NCBI GenBank assembly: GCA_011391865.1
Contig: JAABPV010000022.1
Span: 1-64,000, forward strand
Direction of reading: 5' to 3'
Length of the DNA: 64,000 bases
Source: Desulfobulbaceae bacterium
Lineage (GTDB): Bacteria; Desulfobacterota; Desulfobulbia; Desulfobulbales; Desulfobulbaceae
The position numbers and the translations under genes were made by a program. Positions within the stretch are counted from its first letter, which is position 1; each line of letters opens with the position of its first letter. Below, one piece after another: positions 2,704 to 49,142 of the stretch. The notes below the pieces were generated by a model. It saw nothing but the letters and a program-made list of their open reading frames with translations. It searched no databases and had not been told where the DNA came from.

Positions 2704-2778
2704 TTCGCACACCCTGTAGGAAAGTTCACCCGCCTCGGTTCACGCCTGCGCCGCCCCGTTCCCCGTTTCCATCGCCCC

Positions 2779-3040
2779 AAATTCAATTGGAATCAAGGCG
2801 ATTCCAATTGAATTTGCCCTGATTCACACTGAAATCGTCCCGTTTTCGACCGGAATCAGCCTGATTCAAATTGAAATCGCTCTGATTTACACTTGAATTG
2901 CCCCAATTTCAATTGAAATTGCCCCGATTCACACTTAAATCGGGACGATTTAAACGTAAATCGGCTTGATTCCAGTGTGAATCGCCCTGATTTCAATTGA
3001 AATCGGAGCGTTTTAAGTGTAAAACGGCCCGATTTAAACG
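2779..3040. repeat. array of 16-bp palindromic units, exact 21-bp period
   Basis: Thirteen unit starts fall at 2779, 2800, 2821 and so on to 3031, with no indel. Each unit is about 16 bp, of the form GATT-8 nt-AATC, and is a full or partial palindrome (GATTTCAATTGAAATC at 2989; GATTCACACTGAAATC at 2821). Units are separated by 5-bp spacers, mostly GCCCT, GCCCC or close variants. Some units are near reverse complements of others (2821 and 2968). Twenty-one bp is two turns of B-DNA, so every palindrome faces the same side. The array lies between the pentapeptide gene start (2703) and the livK 3' end (3133). The same family recurs at 48667-48892. Confidence 0.9.
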
Positions 3041-3094
3041 AACAACACAACAGATAAAACCGTAAAAATTCAGATTCTTGCCGCGTCCGGCCTT

Positions 3095-3122
3095 GTAAGG
3101 GCGGTTCGCGAACCGCCCTTAC
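3095..3122. repeat. perfect 28-bp palindrome at the livK 3' end
   Basis: The two 14-bp arms (GTAAGGGCGGTTCG and its exact complement) abut with no loop. It lies 10 bp past the stop of the minus-strand livK-like gene and could end transcription, though no T-tract follows. It resembles the GTAGGGGC-type palindromes scattered in many environmental bacterial genomes, as does the element at 10101-10128. Confidence 0.8.
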
Positions 3123-10100: not shown

Positions 10101-10151
10101 GTAGGGGCGAAAAATCTTTCGCCCCTACTGCTTCTATATTTTCGCCCCTAC
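10101..10151. repeat. GTAGGGGC palindrome with a third copy of one arm
   Basis: GTAGGGGCGAAA (10101-10112) and its complement TTTCGCCCCTAC (10117-10128) form a hairpin with a 4-nt loop. A second TTTCGCCCCTAC follows exactly 23 bp after the first (10140-10151). The surrounding 10002-10100 holds no gene. It lies just before the 23-bp array at 10190 and shares its period. Confidence 0.8.
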
Positions 10152-10189
10152 TATTTCCATACGCACGCGACCACACCCACGACACAACG

Positions 10190-10274
10190 CTGACCATGCT
10201 CGCGGTTGTCCCCTGAGCATGGTCAGGGTCGGACGCTGAGCATGGTCAGGGTTGTCCCCTGACCATGCTCGCGT
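10190..10274. repeat. array of inverted 16-bp units, 23-bp period
   Basis: Four 16-bp units start at 10190, 10213, 10236 and 10259: CTGACCATGCTCGCGG, CTGAGCATGGTCAGGG twice, then CTGACCATGCTCGCGT. Outer and inner units are largely reverse complements of each other (TGACCATGCTC against GAGCATGGTCA). The 7-bp spacers are TTGTCCC, TCGGACG and TTGTCCC. The array ends about 105 bp before the start of the HU-like gene at 10380. The design matches the arrays at 22494 and 37459 although the cores differ. Confidence 0.88.
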
Positions 10275-10379
10275 GTTTCCAATTTGCCTCTTGCGGCATC
10301 TATCAGGAAGGTTTACTCTGCAAACATGCGCTGCTGGCAATCCGTCATGCAGCTGATCATTCAACGTAAGGAGTAGATC

Positions 10380-11426
10380 ATGCCGATTCAATACAAGGTG
10401 CTTCCGAACTTGCTGACCAATCCGCCTTCATACGTGGCAAGGCCGATAGCCCAGAACACGCTCGATTACGACACGCTGGCCGCGCAGATCAGCCTGCACA
10501 ACCCGACCATTCCGGCGGACACAGCCAAGGCTGTTTTGGAGGCCTTCCGCGAGGAGGTGATCCGCCAGCTTGCCAACGGCAACACCATCAATTTGTACGG
10601 TTTTGTCGCATTTGTTGCCTCAATGCCTGTCCGGCTGGCGCAGCCTTCTGACAGTCTGCCGACTAATCCTGTTGACGTGAAGGCCAAGCCTTCTGTGGTG
10701 CTGAAGCAGAAAGTCGCGCAGCAGGCGACGTATCTGCGCCTGCCGTATGCGGAGAAGTCGCCGGATATCAGCGCAACCTATGATACAAACACGAATATTG
10801 CCAACTGGATCCGCGAGGATAACGGCTTCCGTTTAGACGGCGCGAACATCGGCTTTGACGCGGCAGATCCGGCTCAAGGCGTGTTCCTGACCGATGCGGA
10901 CGGACGCATCATGCAGCAGACCAAAATCAGTCTCAACAATCCCTCGAAAATCATTATCACGCCTGATTTCGGCAAGAAGCATTCTGCGCCGCCGAACGTC
11001 GAGAAGACCATTGCCGTGCGGTCGCGCTATACGGAGAATGGCCAGCTGCGCACGGGCGAGTATTCCAAGCGTCTGCGCTCAACTAACACAGTCACGCAGG
11101 CGCAGCCCAAGCTCTTTGTGGTCGGCAACGATGCAGACGGCCCACTGGTCGTGACCGGCTATGCCGGCGAGCAGATCCTGTGCCGGTTTGAGGCGGTCTA
11201 CCGCACGGACGGCAAGATTTCCCTTGCTGTCGGCCCGCTGGCAGGAACTCTCGGCCAAGCACTAATTCTGCCGCCTGACGGAGCGGCCATAACGCTGGCC
11301 GGATTAGCTGCGCCGGTGACAGTGAGTTGGATCAACAGCGACTCATACGATCTCTTTGTCGCCAGCCTGCTGTCCTATGGACGATATATGCTGGAAGTCT
11401 GCAATCTTTCGCCCTTCAGCGCATAA
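10380..11426 (+). CDS. HU-like DNA-binding domain / DUF4469-type protein, copy 1
   Basis: Protein of 348 residues. Residues 1-125 resemble the HU/IHF-like domain of the Bvu_2165 kind: YDTLAAQISLHNPTI, AVLEAFREEVIRQLANG, then INLYGFVAFVASM. The rest looks like the beta-rich region with an Ig-like DUF4469 domain (ISLNNPSKIIITPDFGKK, TENGQLRTGEYSKRLRS). There is no signal peptide. A paralogue lies at 21337-22413, and both begin MPI-x-Y-x-V. AAGGAG sits 6 nt before the ATG. A 23-bp inverted-unit array lies about 105 bp upstream here and about 80 bp upstream of the paralogue. A role in binding such DNA is a guess; the family's function is not established. trpD follows 18 bp later and may be co-transcribed. 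Confidence 0.75.
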   Translation: MPIQYKVLPNLLTNPPSYVARPIAQNTLDYDTLAAQISLHNPTIPADTAKAVLEAFREEVIRQLANGNTINLYGFVAFVASMPVRLAQPSDSLPTNPVDVKAKPSVVLKQKVAQQATYLRLPYAEKSPDISATYDTNTNIANWIREDNGFRLDGANIGFDAADPAQGVFLTDADGRIMQQTKISLNNPSKIIITPDFGKKHSAPPNVEKTIAVRSRYTENGQLRTGEYSKRLRSTNTVTQAQPKLFVVGNDADGPLVVTGYAGEQILCRFEAVYRTDGKISLAVGPLAGTLGQALILPPDGAAITLAGLAAPVTVSWINSDSYDLFVASLLSYGRYMLEVCNLSPFSA

Positions 11427-12716: not shown

Positions 12717-15451
12717 ATGAAGAATATATGCTTGCGCGCCCTTCTGGCCGCCTTCGCTTTCTTCTGCATGGAGCACGCCGCTGAGGCGGCAACGCTGCTT
12801 GTTCCCTCGCAATACGCCACGCCCAACGCGGCAGCAGCAGCGGCGAAAGACGGCGACACTGTTCTGATTGAAGCAGGGGACTACACAGGCACCGGCATTG
12901 TCGCCACATGGAGCCAGAGCAATCTGACAATACGCGGCATCAACGGCAGGCCGCACATGAACGCCGCAGGAGTGACGATTTCAAACGGAAAAGGCATCTG
13001 GGTGATTGGCGGCAGCAATGTGCTTGTGGAGAACATTGAGTTCTCCAATGCTGAGGTTCCAAGCGACAATGGAGCTGGAATCAGATACGAGGGAACAGGC
13101 AGCCTTTTGGTAAGAAACTGCTATTTTCATAACAATGAAAACGCCATCCTGACAGGCAACAACGGAACCGAAGAGATCACGCTTGAATACTGTGAATTCC
13201 GTGACCACAAGACACCAACTCTTTTAGGGCATAATATTTACATAGGGAGCGGAGCCAAGTTCACAATGATCGGCAGCCACTCGCATGGCGCACATCGAGG
13301 CCATAACGTGAAAACAAGAGCGAGGGAAAACTATATCCTGTACAACAGGATAGCTGACAGCGATAATCTTGAGGACAAAGGATCAAGCTATCTTGTTGAC
13401 ATATCTCAAGGCGGACTCACGTACATGATAGGCAATGAGTTCCGTCAATTGCAGAAGACTGAAAACCCTTCGGCGATAGGGTATTCAAAGGAGGGCAACA
13501 AGCATCCTCAGCAGGTTCTGTATTTCATAAACAACACCGTTGTTAATGACAAACTCATAGGTGACTCTACCGCCTTGGATCTTGGCGCGAGCACAAGCGG
13601 AAAGATCGTCAACAATATCTTCGACAGCTTCAAGGTCAAGGTTGCAGGGACATTCACCGGAGAGTATACCAACAATATAGACAACGCCACATTTGTTGAC
13701 CGAGACAGCATGAACTACCGCTTGCAGAGCGGCTCCAGCGGCATCAACACAGGTATCAATGCTGGAGTCGGCGACGGATTCAGTCTTGCGCCAACACAAG
13801 AATACATCCACCATCTGCAAACAGCGGCACGGCCCTCTGACGGCCAATTAGATGTCGGCGCATTTGAATTCACAACAGAGACAGTGCCTTCGCACACGCT
13901 TTCCGCAAGCGTGACCGGCAGCGGAACAGTGACGAGCAGCCCGGCGGGAATCAGCTGCGGGAGCGATTGCAGCGAGTCCTACAGTTCCGGCCAGAGCGTA
14001 ACCCTGACAGCCAGCCCGGCGGCAGGCTCGGCATTCACCGGCTGGGGCGGGGCCTGTTCCGGCGCGGCGAGCGAATGCGTTGTCTCCATGACTGAAGACT
14101 TGAGCGTGACAGCAGCCTTCGACACCAGCGTCACGCCGCCGACACCGACAGCAGCAGTTATCACAGCTGGCAGCACACACACAGCAGCCCTGCTGTCAGA
14201 CGGCAGCCTCTGGGCCTGGGGTTCGAATATGTACACCCAGCTTGGCGATGGCACGACAGATGACAGAGTCAGCCCGGTGCGGATCGGAACAGACAACAAC
14301 TGGCAGTCGTTGAGCAGCACATCCATCCACAGCGTGGCGGTCAAACAAGACGGCACGCTCTGGGCCTGGGGCGACAACAGCGACGGTCAGCTCGGCGACG
14401 GCACGCAGCTTTCCCGCAGCGCGCCTGTGCGGATCGGCAGCGCGGCAGACTGGAAGATGGCGGCAGCTGGCGGAATACTCAGCGCAGCCATAAAGAATGA
14501 CGGCAGCTTGTGGGCGTGGGGATATTTCACCGGTCAATACGGCATTGGCAGTGCGGCACCGCTGCGCATCGGCGCGGAGAACACATGGCAGTTTGTCAGC
14601 GCTGGCGGCGGCCACACCTTGGCGGTCAAAAGCGACGGCTCCTTATGGGGCTGGGGATCGAACGGCTGGGGTCGGCTCGGCGACGGCACAACAGAACATC
14701 GGCCTGATCCGGTGCGGATCGGCGACGAGAACAGCTGGAAATTCGTCAGCGCGGGCGGCACGCACAGCCTGGGCATCAAAACAGACGGCAGCCTATGGGC
14801 TTGGGGCAGAAACTACGAAGGCCAGCTCGGCGACGGCAGCAATACTGAACGCCACGCTCCGGTTCAGATCAGCGGCTCTGGCTGGAAAACGGCGGCGGCA
14901 GGCAATGAGCATTCCGCAGCTGTCAGGAATGACGGCACCCTGTGGACCTGGGGCACAAACACATACGGCCAGCTTGGCGACGGCACGCAGACTGACAGGA
15001 ACAGCCCTGTTCAGGTCGGCTCGGAAAGCAGCTGGCAGGCAGTCGCTATCGGCTGGGCGCACACTGTCGCGCTGAAAAACGACGGCACGATCTGGGCGTG
15101 GGGATATACAACTTTGCCGGAATGCTTGGCGACGGCACAACGACGGACAGCATGGTTCCTGTGCAGGTTATCTTCCTTGCCGAGAATGACAGCGACCAAG
15201 ATGGCATGGACGATGCTTGGGAGCTGCATCACTTCGGCAGCTTGACAGCAGCGGGCGCAGGAACTGACTATGACAAGGACGGCTACAGCGACAAGCAGGA
15301 ATATCTAAACGAGCTGGCCGGAGAGATTGACCCGGACGGGACTGCCTATGATCCAAACGAAAAGAATGCTCCCAACGGCACGGGATGGAAAAATTCCGCC
15401 GCCGCAGGGGCTTCACTTCAGGCGGTCTATCAGCTGCTGCTGAACCACTAA
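12717..15451 (+). CDS. secreted beta-helix / RCC1-repeat protein, frameshifted near the 3' end
   Basis: Signal peptide (MKNICLRALLAAFAFFCMEH then AAEA) and a right-handed beta-helix region of the pectate-lyase type (about residues 25-390; NLTIRGINGRPHM, NVLVENIEFSNAEV). A bacterial-repeat domain (about 395-470, GWGGACSGAASECVVSMTED) precedes about seven RCC1 repeats (LWAWG-N-GQLGDGT; residues 480-800). The frame then breaks at 15104-15109: WAWG runs on as YTTLPEC and stops at 15245, while the +1 frame continues the repeat as YNFAGMLGDGTTTDS. That frame ends with an acidic calcium-binding-like stretch (ENDSDQDGMDDAWELH, DYDKDGYSDKQEYLNE) at 15451. Losing one TA of TATA restores the frame, giving about 910 residues. 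It is probably an extracellular or surface protein with a beta-propeller; function unknown. Confidence 0.85.
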
Positions 15452-21336: not shown

Positions 21337-22413
21337 TCACGGCGCAGCAATGTCCTCAATCGTCAGCGGTTCGACGAGTTCGCCTGAATATTTATTCATC
21401 AATGCTTCGATCTGGTCGAAGTTTGCAATAGTGATTGCATAGGCAACGATTTCACCAACAGCAGGAATACTCACAAGGCCGTTGCCTGAAATGGTAATTG
21501 GATCCCCTGTCAGGATTGTTCCGCCGTACTTCGGATAATTCTGCATCCGAGCTGTGATTACTCCTTTCGTATCACGCCGCACGACAAGATTTCCGTATGC
21601 AGGGTCTGAACTGGATACGGTGCATGAATTCAGTGTTCCGAACCACACATCTGTATCATCGAGCCTTGAATACAGCTGCTTGCGTATTGTTGTGTCAGTA
21701 AGGATTCTTTGACGAATCGGTTTGCTGTATGCTGTAATGCGCAGACTTCCGCTTTCAGTGTACTTTGTCTTTGCCGTTAATGTGTACTCATTGCGGTATC
21801 CTGTGCCTTGTACTTCGTTTACAACATTGTTGATGAAAGAAACTGTCTTTTTTCCGATGCTCGGATAGATGAAAACTCGTTCTTCTCCATCAACTCCATT
21901 ATCGGTGAAAATGCCTTGCTGTTCGTCTGTCAAAGAAAACTTCAGATTGTCGCCGTAGATTTCAGTTGGGAACTGCTCTTCCATCGTGTTGGCCACGTTC
22001 CGCTGTACATCTATAACCTGAATTATCGACGGTTCTTTGGATGTGTAGCCTTCCCTTACAAACTCTGCTTCAACCCTAAGCTCATCACGGAACGTGAAAG
22101 ATACTTTGCCGTTCACAATCAGAGCGTTGGGCGGTAAGGGATCAGTTGGGCTTGCGAGCACTGCTGGCAAGCCTGTCACGAACGAGCAGAAGTTTTTCAG
22201 CTTGATAGTCTTGCCTGCCAGCAGCTGCTCTTTCACGACCGCCCGAAGATCATTCAGGACTATGAGCGCCACAGCCTCGGAAACCACTGGGTCTTTCGCG
22301 TTGATCAGCGCAGCCACGTCCTCAAAATCCAGAATCTCGCTGGCCTGCGTCCGGCAGAAGTATGATACGGGTGAAGTCAGCTTGTTTTCTGTCACGTAGT
22401 AGCCTATGGGCAT
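21337..22413 (-). CDS. HU-like DNA-binding domain / DUF4469-type protein, copy 2
   Basis: 358 residues, a paralogue of the 10380-11426 protein with the same plan. The HU-like part shows LDFEDVAALINAKDPVV, LNDLRAVVKEQLLAGKTI and KLKNFCSFVTGLP. The beta-rich part shows RVFIYPSIGKK and KYTESGSLRITAYSKPIRQR, then a C-terminal domain ending EPLTIEDIAAP. The ATG at 22413 is chosen over the ORF start at 22458 because GAGGAG lies 8 nt before it and because both paralogues begin with MPI. The 23-bp array at 22494-22578 starts about 80 bp upstream. It stands alone. The two copies have diverged strongly, so the duplication is not recent. Confidence 0.75.
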   Translation of the reverse strand: MPIGYYVTENKLTSPVSYFCRTQASEILDFEDVAALINAKDPVVSEAVALIVLNDLRAVVKEQLLAGKTIKLKNFCSFVTGLPAVLASPTDPLPPNALIVNGKVSFTFRDELRVEAEFVREGYTSKEPSIIQVIDVQRNVANTMEEQFPTEIYGDNLKFSLTDEQQGIFTDNGVDGEERVFIYPSIGKKTVSFINNVVNEVQGTGYRNEYTLTAKTKYTESGSLRITAYSKPIRQRILTDTTIRKQLYSRLDDTDVWFGTLNSCTVSSSDPAYGNLVVRRDTKGVITARMQNYPKYGGTILTGDPITISGNGLVSIPAVGEIVAYAITIANFDQIEALMNKYSGELVEPLTIEDIAAP

Positions 22414-22493
22414 GGTGTTGCTCCTCAGGTGAATTTGGTGTTCATGCTGCTCCTGCATTTATTGTACATTATGATCAGATTTTTGTGGAGCGC

Positions 22494-22578
22494 AAACACG
22501 TAGGCATTCAAGACATAAACACGTAGGCATTTAAGACATAAACACGTAGGCATTTATGTGTTGAATGCCTACGTGTTT
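22494..22578. repeat. array of 16-bp units with 23-bp period, last unit inverted
   Basis: Three direct copies of AAACACGTAGGCATTC or close variants start at 22494, 22517 and 22540, each followed by a 7-bp spacer (AAGACAT in the first two). The fourth unit, at 22563, is the exact inverse (GAATGCCTACGTGTTT) and keeps the 23-bp step. It lies about 80 bp upstream of the HU-like gene start at 22413. The remaining stretch (22579-22644) has no gene. Confidence 0.9.
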
Positions 22579-22644
22579 GTTTTCCGGCTCCGCTCGAGGC
22601 TGTGCCGTCGCGCCTCGTTCGTCGTCGTCATCGCCTGCTGCGCT

Positions 22645-37458: not shown

Positions 37459-37589
37459 CGATGCATGGTTCGAGATTGCCCCGATGCATGGTTCGAGCCT
37501 CGTCCGAACCATGCTTCGGGCCTCATCCGAATTATGCTTCGAGCCTGGCCCGAACCATGCTTCGAGATTTTCTCGATGCATGGTTCGAG
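37459..37589. repeat. array of inverted 16-bp units, 23-bp period
   Basis: Six 16-bp units start at 37459, 37482, 37505, 37528, 37551 and 37574. Units 1, 2 and 6 are CGATGCATGGTTCGAG. Units 3-5 are CGAACCATGCTTCGGG, CGAATTATGCTTCGAG and CGAACCATGCTTCGAG, roughly the inverse. Seven-bp spacers are ATTGCCC, CCTCGTC, CCTCATC, CCTGGCC and ATTTTCT. It lies between the adh stop (37630) and the glgB start (37287). The core ACCATGC is shared with the array at 10190. Confidence 0.88.
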
Positions 37590-37629
37590 ATTTTGCCGGG
37601 CCGCCGCGTCACGCAGGGCCGCCGCCCGC

Positions 37630-43198: not shown

Positions 43199-43544
43199 TT
43201 TATAGACAGGGGACAGCGGCACACAAGTTTCCCTGCGCTGTTTGTGATCAACAGAGTATTGAGCCAACTCTCTTTAAAAGGGCTGCTCCTTTTCTGCCGG
43301 ATTATGGAAAACTTTACTGATTTCCAGACGACCGCATGGCGCGCCCACCTATTTCGATAGGTTTAATTATTCTGTTGACACGGCAGTGCGGGGTTTTTTG
43401 CAGCCTGATCATGGCTGCCGCGCCGTCCGCATTCCTGCCTCACTGATCTCCCCCCGCAGTTTTCTCCGCCGCAGTTAGCTGTTTTATCTCACATTTCGCA
43501 GCACGAAACTGCTGCATGCATCTATAAACTAGGTTATTCATGTC
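43199..43544. other. rny upstream region, about 345 bp
   Basis: No convincing gene. A 60-residue frame at 43178-43360 lacks a plausible start signal. TTGACA at 43374-43379 could be a -35 element of a promoter for rny, but I see no good -10. CCTATTTCGATAGG (43350-43363) is a small palindrome. Confidence 0.4.
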
Positions 43545-48517: not shown

Positions 48518-48666
48518 GCTCAGCCCAGCCTGAAGCATCCGCTTTTCCCGCAGGCAAGGCTGTCTCTGCGCGTTCACAGCAGCTCTGCTGAATTATTCTG
48601 TTTTTCCGCCGCCTGCGCCGGAAGGATGCTCGTTTCAATTGCGGCGGAGCACGCTTGTTTTGCCCT

Positions 48667-48892
48667 GATTCCAATTGGAATCGTGTCAATGTCGATTGGA
48701 ATCAGGGCAAAGTCAATTGGAATTGGAGCGATTCCGATTGGAACCGGGGCAATTCCAATCGGAATCAGGGTAATTTCAATTGGAACCGGGCTGATTCCAA
48801 CAGAAATCGTGTCAATTCCAACTGGAATCAGGGCGATTCCAATTGACTTTGGCCCGGTTCCAATCGAAAACGCCCCGGTTCCAATTTGAATC
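48667..48892. repeat. second array of the GATTCCAATTGGAATC family, 21-bp period
   Basis: Eleven units start at 48667, 48688, 48709 and so on to 48877, exactly 21 bp apart. The consensus is GATTCCAATTGGAATC, with 5-bp spacers such as AGGGC, GTGTC, GGGGC and GCCCC. Perfect palindromes occur (first unit) along with degenerate ones. The array is in the 700-bp gap between tat genes and 49143; the remainder has no gene. Confidence 0.9.
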
Positions 48893-49142
48893 GGGGCGAT
48901 GCAAACGCGTTTTCCGGCGGCTGCGGCGGGTTTTCAGCCGGAACAAAGCGGTTCCGCAGCGCATGACGCAGCGTTCCGCTTGGCTGCAATTCCTGCAAGA
49001 GTTCAAAACAGAGCAGTCCTCAAAACGTAGTGACAACCCAATTTGTTACAGGTCACAACTTGGGTTGACGAAGTAAATTCTTTGGCGGCAAACGGCTGGC
49101 CGACACAGCCCCCTGCATTCGCAGTCTCTCCTTCCGTAGATT

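Follow-up and report, generated by a model that had tools for sequence, protein, structure and literature searches.

Arrays of short palindromes repeated at a 23-bp step in a Desulfobulbaceae genome are probably the binding-site arrays of a lineage-expanded HU-HIG/DUF4469 protein family, in which each paralog is predicted to have one palindrome of its own and to be autoregulated through it. Three of these arrays and two genes of the family lie in the window, by which we mean the whole stretch of 64,000 nucleotides that was analyzed (contig JAABPV010000022.1, positions 1 to 64,000). The excess of the geometry, the gene-array association, the conservation and divergence of cores, the occurrence of distal arrays with the same core and the localization of core-linked differences to the N-terminal part of the proteins were computed. 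To our knowledge, one private palindrome array per paralog in a common geometry is undescribed, and literature searches on the HU-HIG/DUF4469 family, on cable-bacterium repeats and on REP-like arrays found no description of such arrays.

Identification and geometry of the arrays

Three arrays had been reported in the initial annotation on the basis of their common geometry. All three exist at the positions given there when the units are read directly, their step is exactly 23 bp throughout, and units occur in both orientations; no strand is assigned to the arrays. The description as 16-bp units plus 7-bp spacers holds as one of several equivalent framings, but an imperfect palindrome of about 14 bp followed by 9 bp is the better one. 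Array A (10188..10275) is composed of four units at 10190, 10213, 10236 and 10259 (CTGACCATGCTCGCGG, CTGAGCATGGTCAGGG twice and CTGACCATGCTCGCGT) with the core CTGA(C/G)CATG(C/G)TCAG. Array B (22494..22579) also has four units, three direct at 22494, 22517 and 22540 (AAACACGTAGGCATTC/T) and one inverse at 22563 (GAATGCCTACGTGTTT), with the core AACACGTAGGCATT. Array C (37459..37593) has six units at 37459, 37482, 37505, 37528, 37551 and 37574 (CGATGCATGGTTCGAG, CGAACCATGCTTCGGG and similar) with the core CGA(A/T)(C/G)CATG(C/G)TTCG, and is located upstream of glgB, which is on the minus strand.

A geometry-only scan, which had been suggested as a check on the shared design, was run on the window and 40 stretches of the same genome (863,845 bp of 2.80 Mb, 31%, plus targeted loci), requiring at least 3 units that share a 14-bp core, as direct or inverted copies, and allowing up to 3 mismatches. 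It returned 34 arrays of period 23 and 26 arrays of period 21, against 0 arrays in 30 dinucleotide-preserving shuffles of the scanned DNA, and each of the other periods (15-20, 22 and 24-30) gave 0-3 arrays. Comparison DNA from 80 other bacterial loci (1.41 Mb) contained one period-23 array, and none occurred in 360 kb sampled across eight further genera of this order. The 34 arrays against none in the shuffles, together with the near-absence in other bacteria, indicate that the feature is real and peculiar to this lineage; the original observation is confirmed as correct and was even understated. Many but not all arrays show clear dyad symmetry, 18 of 44 exceeding the 95% null. In one 23-bp array (L033:18759-18888 and beyond, on contig C13 downstream of nifH), a run of N is flanked on each side by matching units, which suggests that MAG assemblies may break at arrays and that array lengths may therefore be underestimated.

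Other repeats and RNA features were recorded as well. The window carries a 6S RNA (Rfam RF00013) at 43227-43398 on the plus strand, and short intergenic REP-like palindromes of the GTAGGGGCG...CGCCCCTAC kind were seen at window positions 10101-10128 and 3095-3122 and in L132 and L139; palindromes of this kind occur in congeners too (nifH region). Two 21-bp-step arrays are also present in the window, both of a design related to that of the 23-bp arrays and neither being assigned a strand, one at 2770..3050 built on GATTTCAATTGAAATC-type palindromes and one at 48650..48907 built on GATTCCAATTGGAATC-type palindromes. The latter lies inside a dispersed repeat of about 640 bp, of which an 88% identical copy was found on contig C3. 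Further 21-bp-step arrays of GATTTCAATTGAAATC or GATTCCAATTGGAATC palindromes were located at C2:1798, C3:18856, C12:14009 and C26:37530, and neither an HU-HIG gene nor any other common gene family was found near arrays of these two types. Arrays of GCAAAGGAGTT/AACTCCTTTGC units with a 21-bp step, oriented both ways and with the Shine-Dalgarno-like AAAGGAG in their core, were observed at L024:17740-18060 (C4), L127:10377-10601 (C7) and L156:2335 (congener G001). Other palindromic arrays (AACGTT..., 20-24 bp steps) occur in Desulfurivibrio sp. of the same order (L054:6549-6626 and 13845-13924).

Association of the arrays with HU-HIG genes

Upstream DNA could be read for 33 HU-HIG paralogs, and 29 of these have a period-23 array there, compared with 38 of 597 genes outside the family. 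This supports, as far as reading is concerned, the earlier proposal of one mechanism that makes or reads the arrays: the geometry is common to them because they belong to one HU-HIG paralog family. When only the first 29 paralogs were considered, 25 had an array, compared with the 38 of 597 control genes (simple ORF calls) that reached the same score (Fisher p = 1.4e-23). The mean upstream period score at HU-HIG genes was 32.1 at period 23 and at most 3.2 at every other period from 15 to 40. The upstream regions on C37, C48 and C51, which were read after the hypothesis had been fixed, all contained clean arrays, as did that on C33. The four paralogs without a period-23 array are C9:45778, C30:15647, C18:462 and C86:3059, the last of which peaks at 24. 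In a second genus of the family, arrays were present at all 8 readable HU-HIG genes.

These genes share one layout, consisting of the array (about 3-8 units), a gap, a -35 and a -10 element, a leader of about 55 nt, a Shine-Dalgarno sequence and the start codon, and the gap between the end of the array and the downstream -35 has a median of 21 bp. The promoters downstream of the gene-linked arrays appear to be of the sigma70-like type, judging from their sequence. An exact TTGACA at -112..-60 was found in 44 of 52 family genes versus 30 of 597 controls; the two genes in the window are among the exceptions and have weaker promoters. Because the arrays precede the promoter, the mRNA that starts from it does not include them.

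In the window, array A is the upstream array of an HU-HIG/DUF4469 protein gene (10380..11426, plus strand, 348 aa; hereafter 10380), the product of which is the presumed reader of this array. A candidate promoter (TTGCGG ... TTTACT, 10291..10317, plus strand) is located between the two, in a segment that is conserved in the ortholog from G001 too; as a promoter it does not reach the strength of the TTGACA type found at most paralogs. Array B is directly upstream of the second paralog in the window (21337..22458, minus strand, likely start at 22413), the presumed reader of array B, whose protein obtained weak Pfam scores and an E value of 5e-95 with the family profile.

The HU-HIG/DUF4469 family

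About 34 HU-HIG/DUF4469 paralogs were identified in this genome by a protein search, which gave 7-19 matches per genome in four congeners. DUF4469 was detected in 5 of 146 genomes of the order, belonging to just two genera, and in 3 of 395 genomes of the phylum including the present one, the other two being weak matches below the cut-off. The protein encoded by 10380 comprises an HU fold (residues ~25-85), an Ig-like DUF4469 domain (131-194) and then a third, C-terminal domain. Its N-terminal domain was assigned to the HU superfamily (PF18291, E 4.5e-7, over the cut-off) with structural matches to HU/IHF, and the following Ig-like domain to DUF4469 (PF14734, E 1.2e-7; PDB 4fmr, E 1e-13); PF14734 hits were obtained for 36 of the 52 members of the family. 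In structure comparison, the predicted model (pLDDT 91) matches Bacteroides BVU_2165 (4fmr) as well as HU/IHF, and these models give the family a predicted fold of the HU/IHF type. Given this fold and the association with arrays, the family proteins are putative DNA binders.

Domain searches found no recombinase or nuclease domain in the family protein, and neither phage or plasmid relatives of it nor viral contigs were found. Membership in a known anti-phage defence family was rejected, four members having no match among the PADLOC anti-phage defence models. Short C-terminal HU-HIG fragments, some with stops, were observed at G000:C23:18340, G001:C14:13928, G002:C107, G003:C2:88980 and other places, and these suggest birth and death of family members. 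Expansion of HU-HIG paralogs is also known in Bacteroidetes. Burroughs et al. are said to have proposed in 2017, on domain evidence, that HU-HIG proteins recognise mobile elements.

Array cores of paralogs and orthologs

That the cores differ between arrays, as had been remarked from the window, is explained by each paralog having its own: even paralogs 65-78% identical within one genome share no core. The core is conserved in 11 protein pairs (67-89% identical) from different genomes, and differs in 43 protein pairs above 60% identity. The array A core recurs upstream of the 10380 ortholog in the second genus (L242, L244); a core was likewise kept by orthologs of C23:16132 (two genera) and of C5:46176, C3:53654 and C86:24928 (congeners). 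The core of the G001 ortholog of 10380 (75% identity) is not the same, and core differences are also seen for some other likely orthologs. The palindrome at ftsY is altered in a compensatory manner, being ACATACCAGTATGT here versus ACATGCCAGCATGT in G003.

When protein pairs at 60% identity or more were compared, the differences linked to the core clustered in residues 1-130, i.e. the HU part, with little excess past residue 180 (Mann-Whitney p = 3e-5 with overlapping pairs and 0.009 with disjoint pairs). The proteins C3:53654 and C2:54812 are 58% identical in their N-terminal parts and 88% in their C-terminal parts, have no common core and possess unrelated arrays, as if the DNA-binding module had been exchanged or had diverged fast. 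An array and its adjacent gene are inherited together, so core conservation among orthologs could by itself be due to linkage; the distal arrays with the same core and the N-terminal signal reduce this objection but do not remove it.

Distal arrays

Arrays not adjoining an HU-HIG gene were termed distal, and 24 of 30 of these could be matched by their core to one particular paralog in this genome with a score of at least 12, whereas 120 shuffles reached at most 8. Array C is of this kind, and its core is common to the upstream array of the HU-HIG gene C44:22509, with 74% over 150 bp that cover the array only. The motif ACCATGC is indeed present in both array A and array C, as had been pointed out, but no link between the two follows from it, because these arrays match different paralogs (10380 and C44:22509, respectively). 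One distal core family, GACACTATAGTGTC (C13 and C18), had no cognate among the paralogs read, and the prediction that one of the last-read paralogs carries this core failed.

TTGACA was found just outside the array in 4 of 28 distal arrays, which are thus not typical promoter operators. The distal arrays are intergenic and neighbour ftsY, gatB, nif genes, an argD-like aminotransferase gene, metW, hemA, znuA, glgB and an LRR-Roc/COR gene; these genes are unrelated, and no functional theme was found among them. The array at glgB is present in this species and absent at glgB of three congeners. Downstream of nifH there is one core here, another in G002 and G001, and none in G003, the array of G001 and G002 carrying the core of another paralog.

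Alternative explanations

Such turnover is also expected if the gene-array pairs are selfish elements, in which the HU-HIG protein would promote the copying or persistence of its own arrays, these would spread between genes, a change of core would mean escape and turnover, and effects on host genes would be a by-product. The gain, loss or replacement of distal arrays at orthologous sites (glgB and nifH), distal matches that end at array edges, neighbours that are unrelated housekeeping genes, and truncated family fragments suggestive of gene birth and death are all in its favour. We nevertheless consider it unlikely, since the HU-HIG protein lacks recombinase and nuclease domains, neither target-site duplications nor a transposase were identified, and the promoter architecture at HU-HIG genes is as uniform as in regulated genes.

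An action of the arrays as RNA, in the form of hairpins, attenuators or terminators within transcripts, is very improbable. The short palindromic units, which often lie between genes of the same direction, would fit such an action, but the arrays of HU-HIG genes lie upstream of the -35 and outside the gene's own transcript, loops of 2-4 nt make poor RNA hairpins, and within the window Rfam finds the 6S RNA only. An RNA-level function was rejected on the position of the arrays upstream of the promoter.

Mobilisation by a RAYT (Y1 HUH transposase), which would make the arrays REP/BIME-like elements, is scarcely credible, even though palindromic units in both orientations, an intergenic position and several families per genome would fit, and one RAYT-type gene exists in the genome. 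This single Y1 transposase gene (L024:19134-19769, C4, minus strand) is flanked by a GTAG-type REP of its own, GTAGGGCGC...GCGCACCCTAC, a different repeat by which such an origin is largely refuted; moreover, dozens of core families face one Y1 gene, and the array families are linked to HU-HIG genes instead. In REPs, the base of the palindrome carries a GTAG or CGTC tag (PMC3733652); no tag was common to the array cores read. The RAYT/REP systems (REPIN, BIME) resemble the present one in that a gene has its own adjoining palindromic repeats with more copies between genes, and in that several independent families exist per genome; they differ in that here an HU-type DNA binder without transposase chemistry, a rigid 23-bp step, dozens of families and arrays upstream of promoters are found.

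The idea that replication slippage gave rise to the common step as a side effect, with no reader, deserves next to no credence, for although many arrays are internally homogeneous, as slippage yields, it would not select 23 bp at dozens of unrelated sequences or put arrays before one gene family, and periods besides 21 and 23 are nearly absent.

Comparison with known systems

The characterized HU-HIG/DUF4469 proteins (PF18291, PF14734; BVU_2165, PDB 4fmr) share with those described here an HU fold followed by an Ig-like domain and the expansion of paralogs within a genome, but the cognate repeat arrays found here were not found described for that family in the searchable literature. Plasmid iterons are sites repeated at about two helical turns and read by a dimer-forming Rep, often in an autoregulatory manner. 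The present arrays resemble them in their roughly two-turn repeats and in the dimer-forming reader proposed here; unlike iterons, they are chromosomal, have dozens of private specificities, occur in both orientations and come without a replication initiator. Domain searches beside the arrays found HU-HIG as the neighbour and no Rep domain. ParB-parS and similar site-specific nucleoid proteins also have palindromic sites near their own gene and elsewhere, whereas here there is no ParA/ParB homology, the sites form arrays rather than single sites, and many members have different sites. With the IHF/HU nucleoid proteins the family shares the fold and, presumably, DNA binding as two-fold symmetric dimers; it differs from them in the private palindrome of each paralog, the fused Ig-like and C-terminal domains and the tandem arrays. 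Unlike in CRISPR, the spacers are 7-9 bp and the cores vary, and no cas domain was found among the array neighbours checked.

Proposed mechanism and implications

If the arrays are read by the HU-HIG family, each paralog would recognise a palindrome of its own, and a single kind of HU dimer occupying every unit would account for the same 23-bp step in all arrays, with neighbouring dimers packed side by side about two helical turns apart. An array upstream of a paralog's own promoter would control that gene, and distal intergenic arrays, such as that at 37459, would be further binding places of particular paralogs, which may be gained and lost quickly between species and could contribute to gene regulation, shape the chromosome or reflect selfish spread. 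That the proteins physically bind the arrays, that their dimers stack and that they regulate their own genes is what we infer, as is any role of the distal arrays.

The host genus is probably a cable bacterium of the Desulfobulbaceae, and Ca. Electronema or Ca. Electrothrix is suggested (PMC10030654, PMC10926707); the best match of GlgB is in a MAG of this family, at 74%. More tentatively, and with something short of even confidence, the whole may be seen as an orthogonal DNA-addressing system, in which about 34 HU-type paralogs per genome would use private palindromes in one 23-bp frame and the HU domain would be a specificity module that can be exchanged while the C-terminal body stays common; the gene-array pairs would change fast and spread into intergenic DNA, perhaps as selfish elements or as elements that structure the genome, in a host that is probably multicellular.

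Proteins of the HU/IHF fold have been known chiefly as weakly specific or single-site DNA benders, and here one HU-fold family appears to have acquired dozens of private specificities while keeping the 23-bp frame constant. Ortholog and paralog pairs that are 60-85% identical, and whose presumed targets are equal or unequal, constitute a natural specificity code, which makes two questions testable, namely how the HU fold gains sequence specificity and what purpose the expansion serves. The family also offers a resource of dozens of natural protein-operator pairs, which may be mutually orthogonal.
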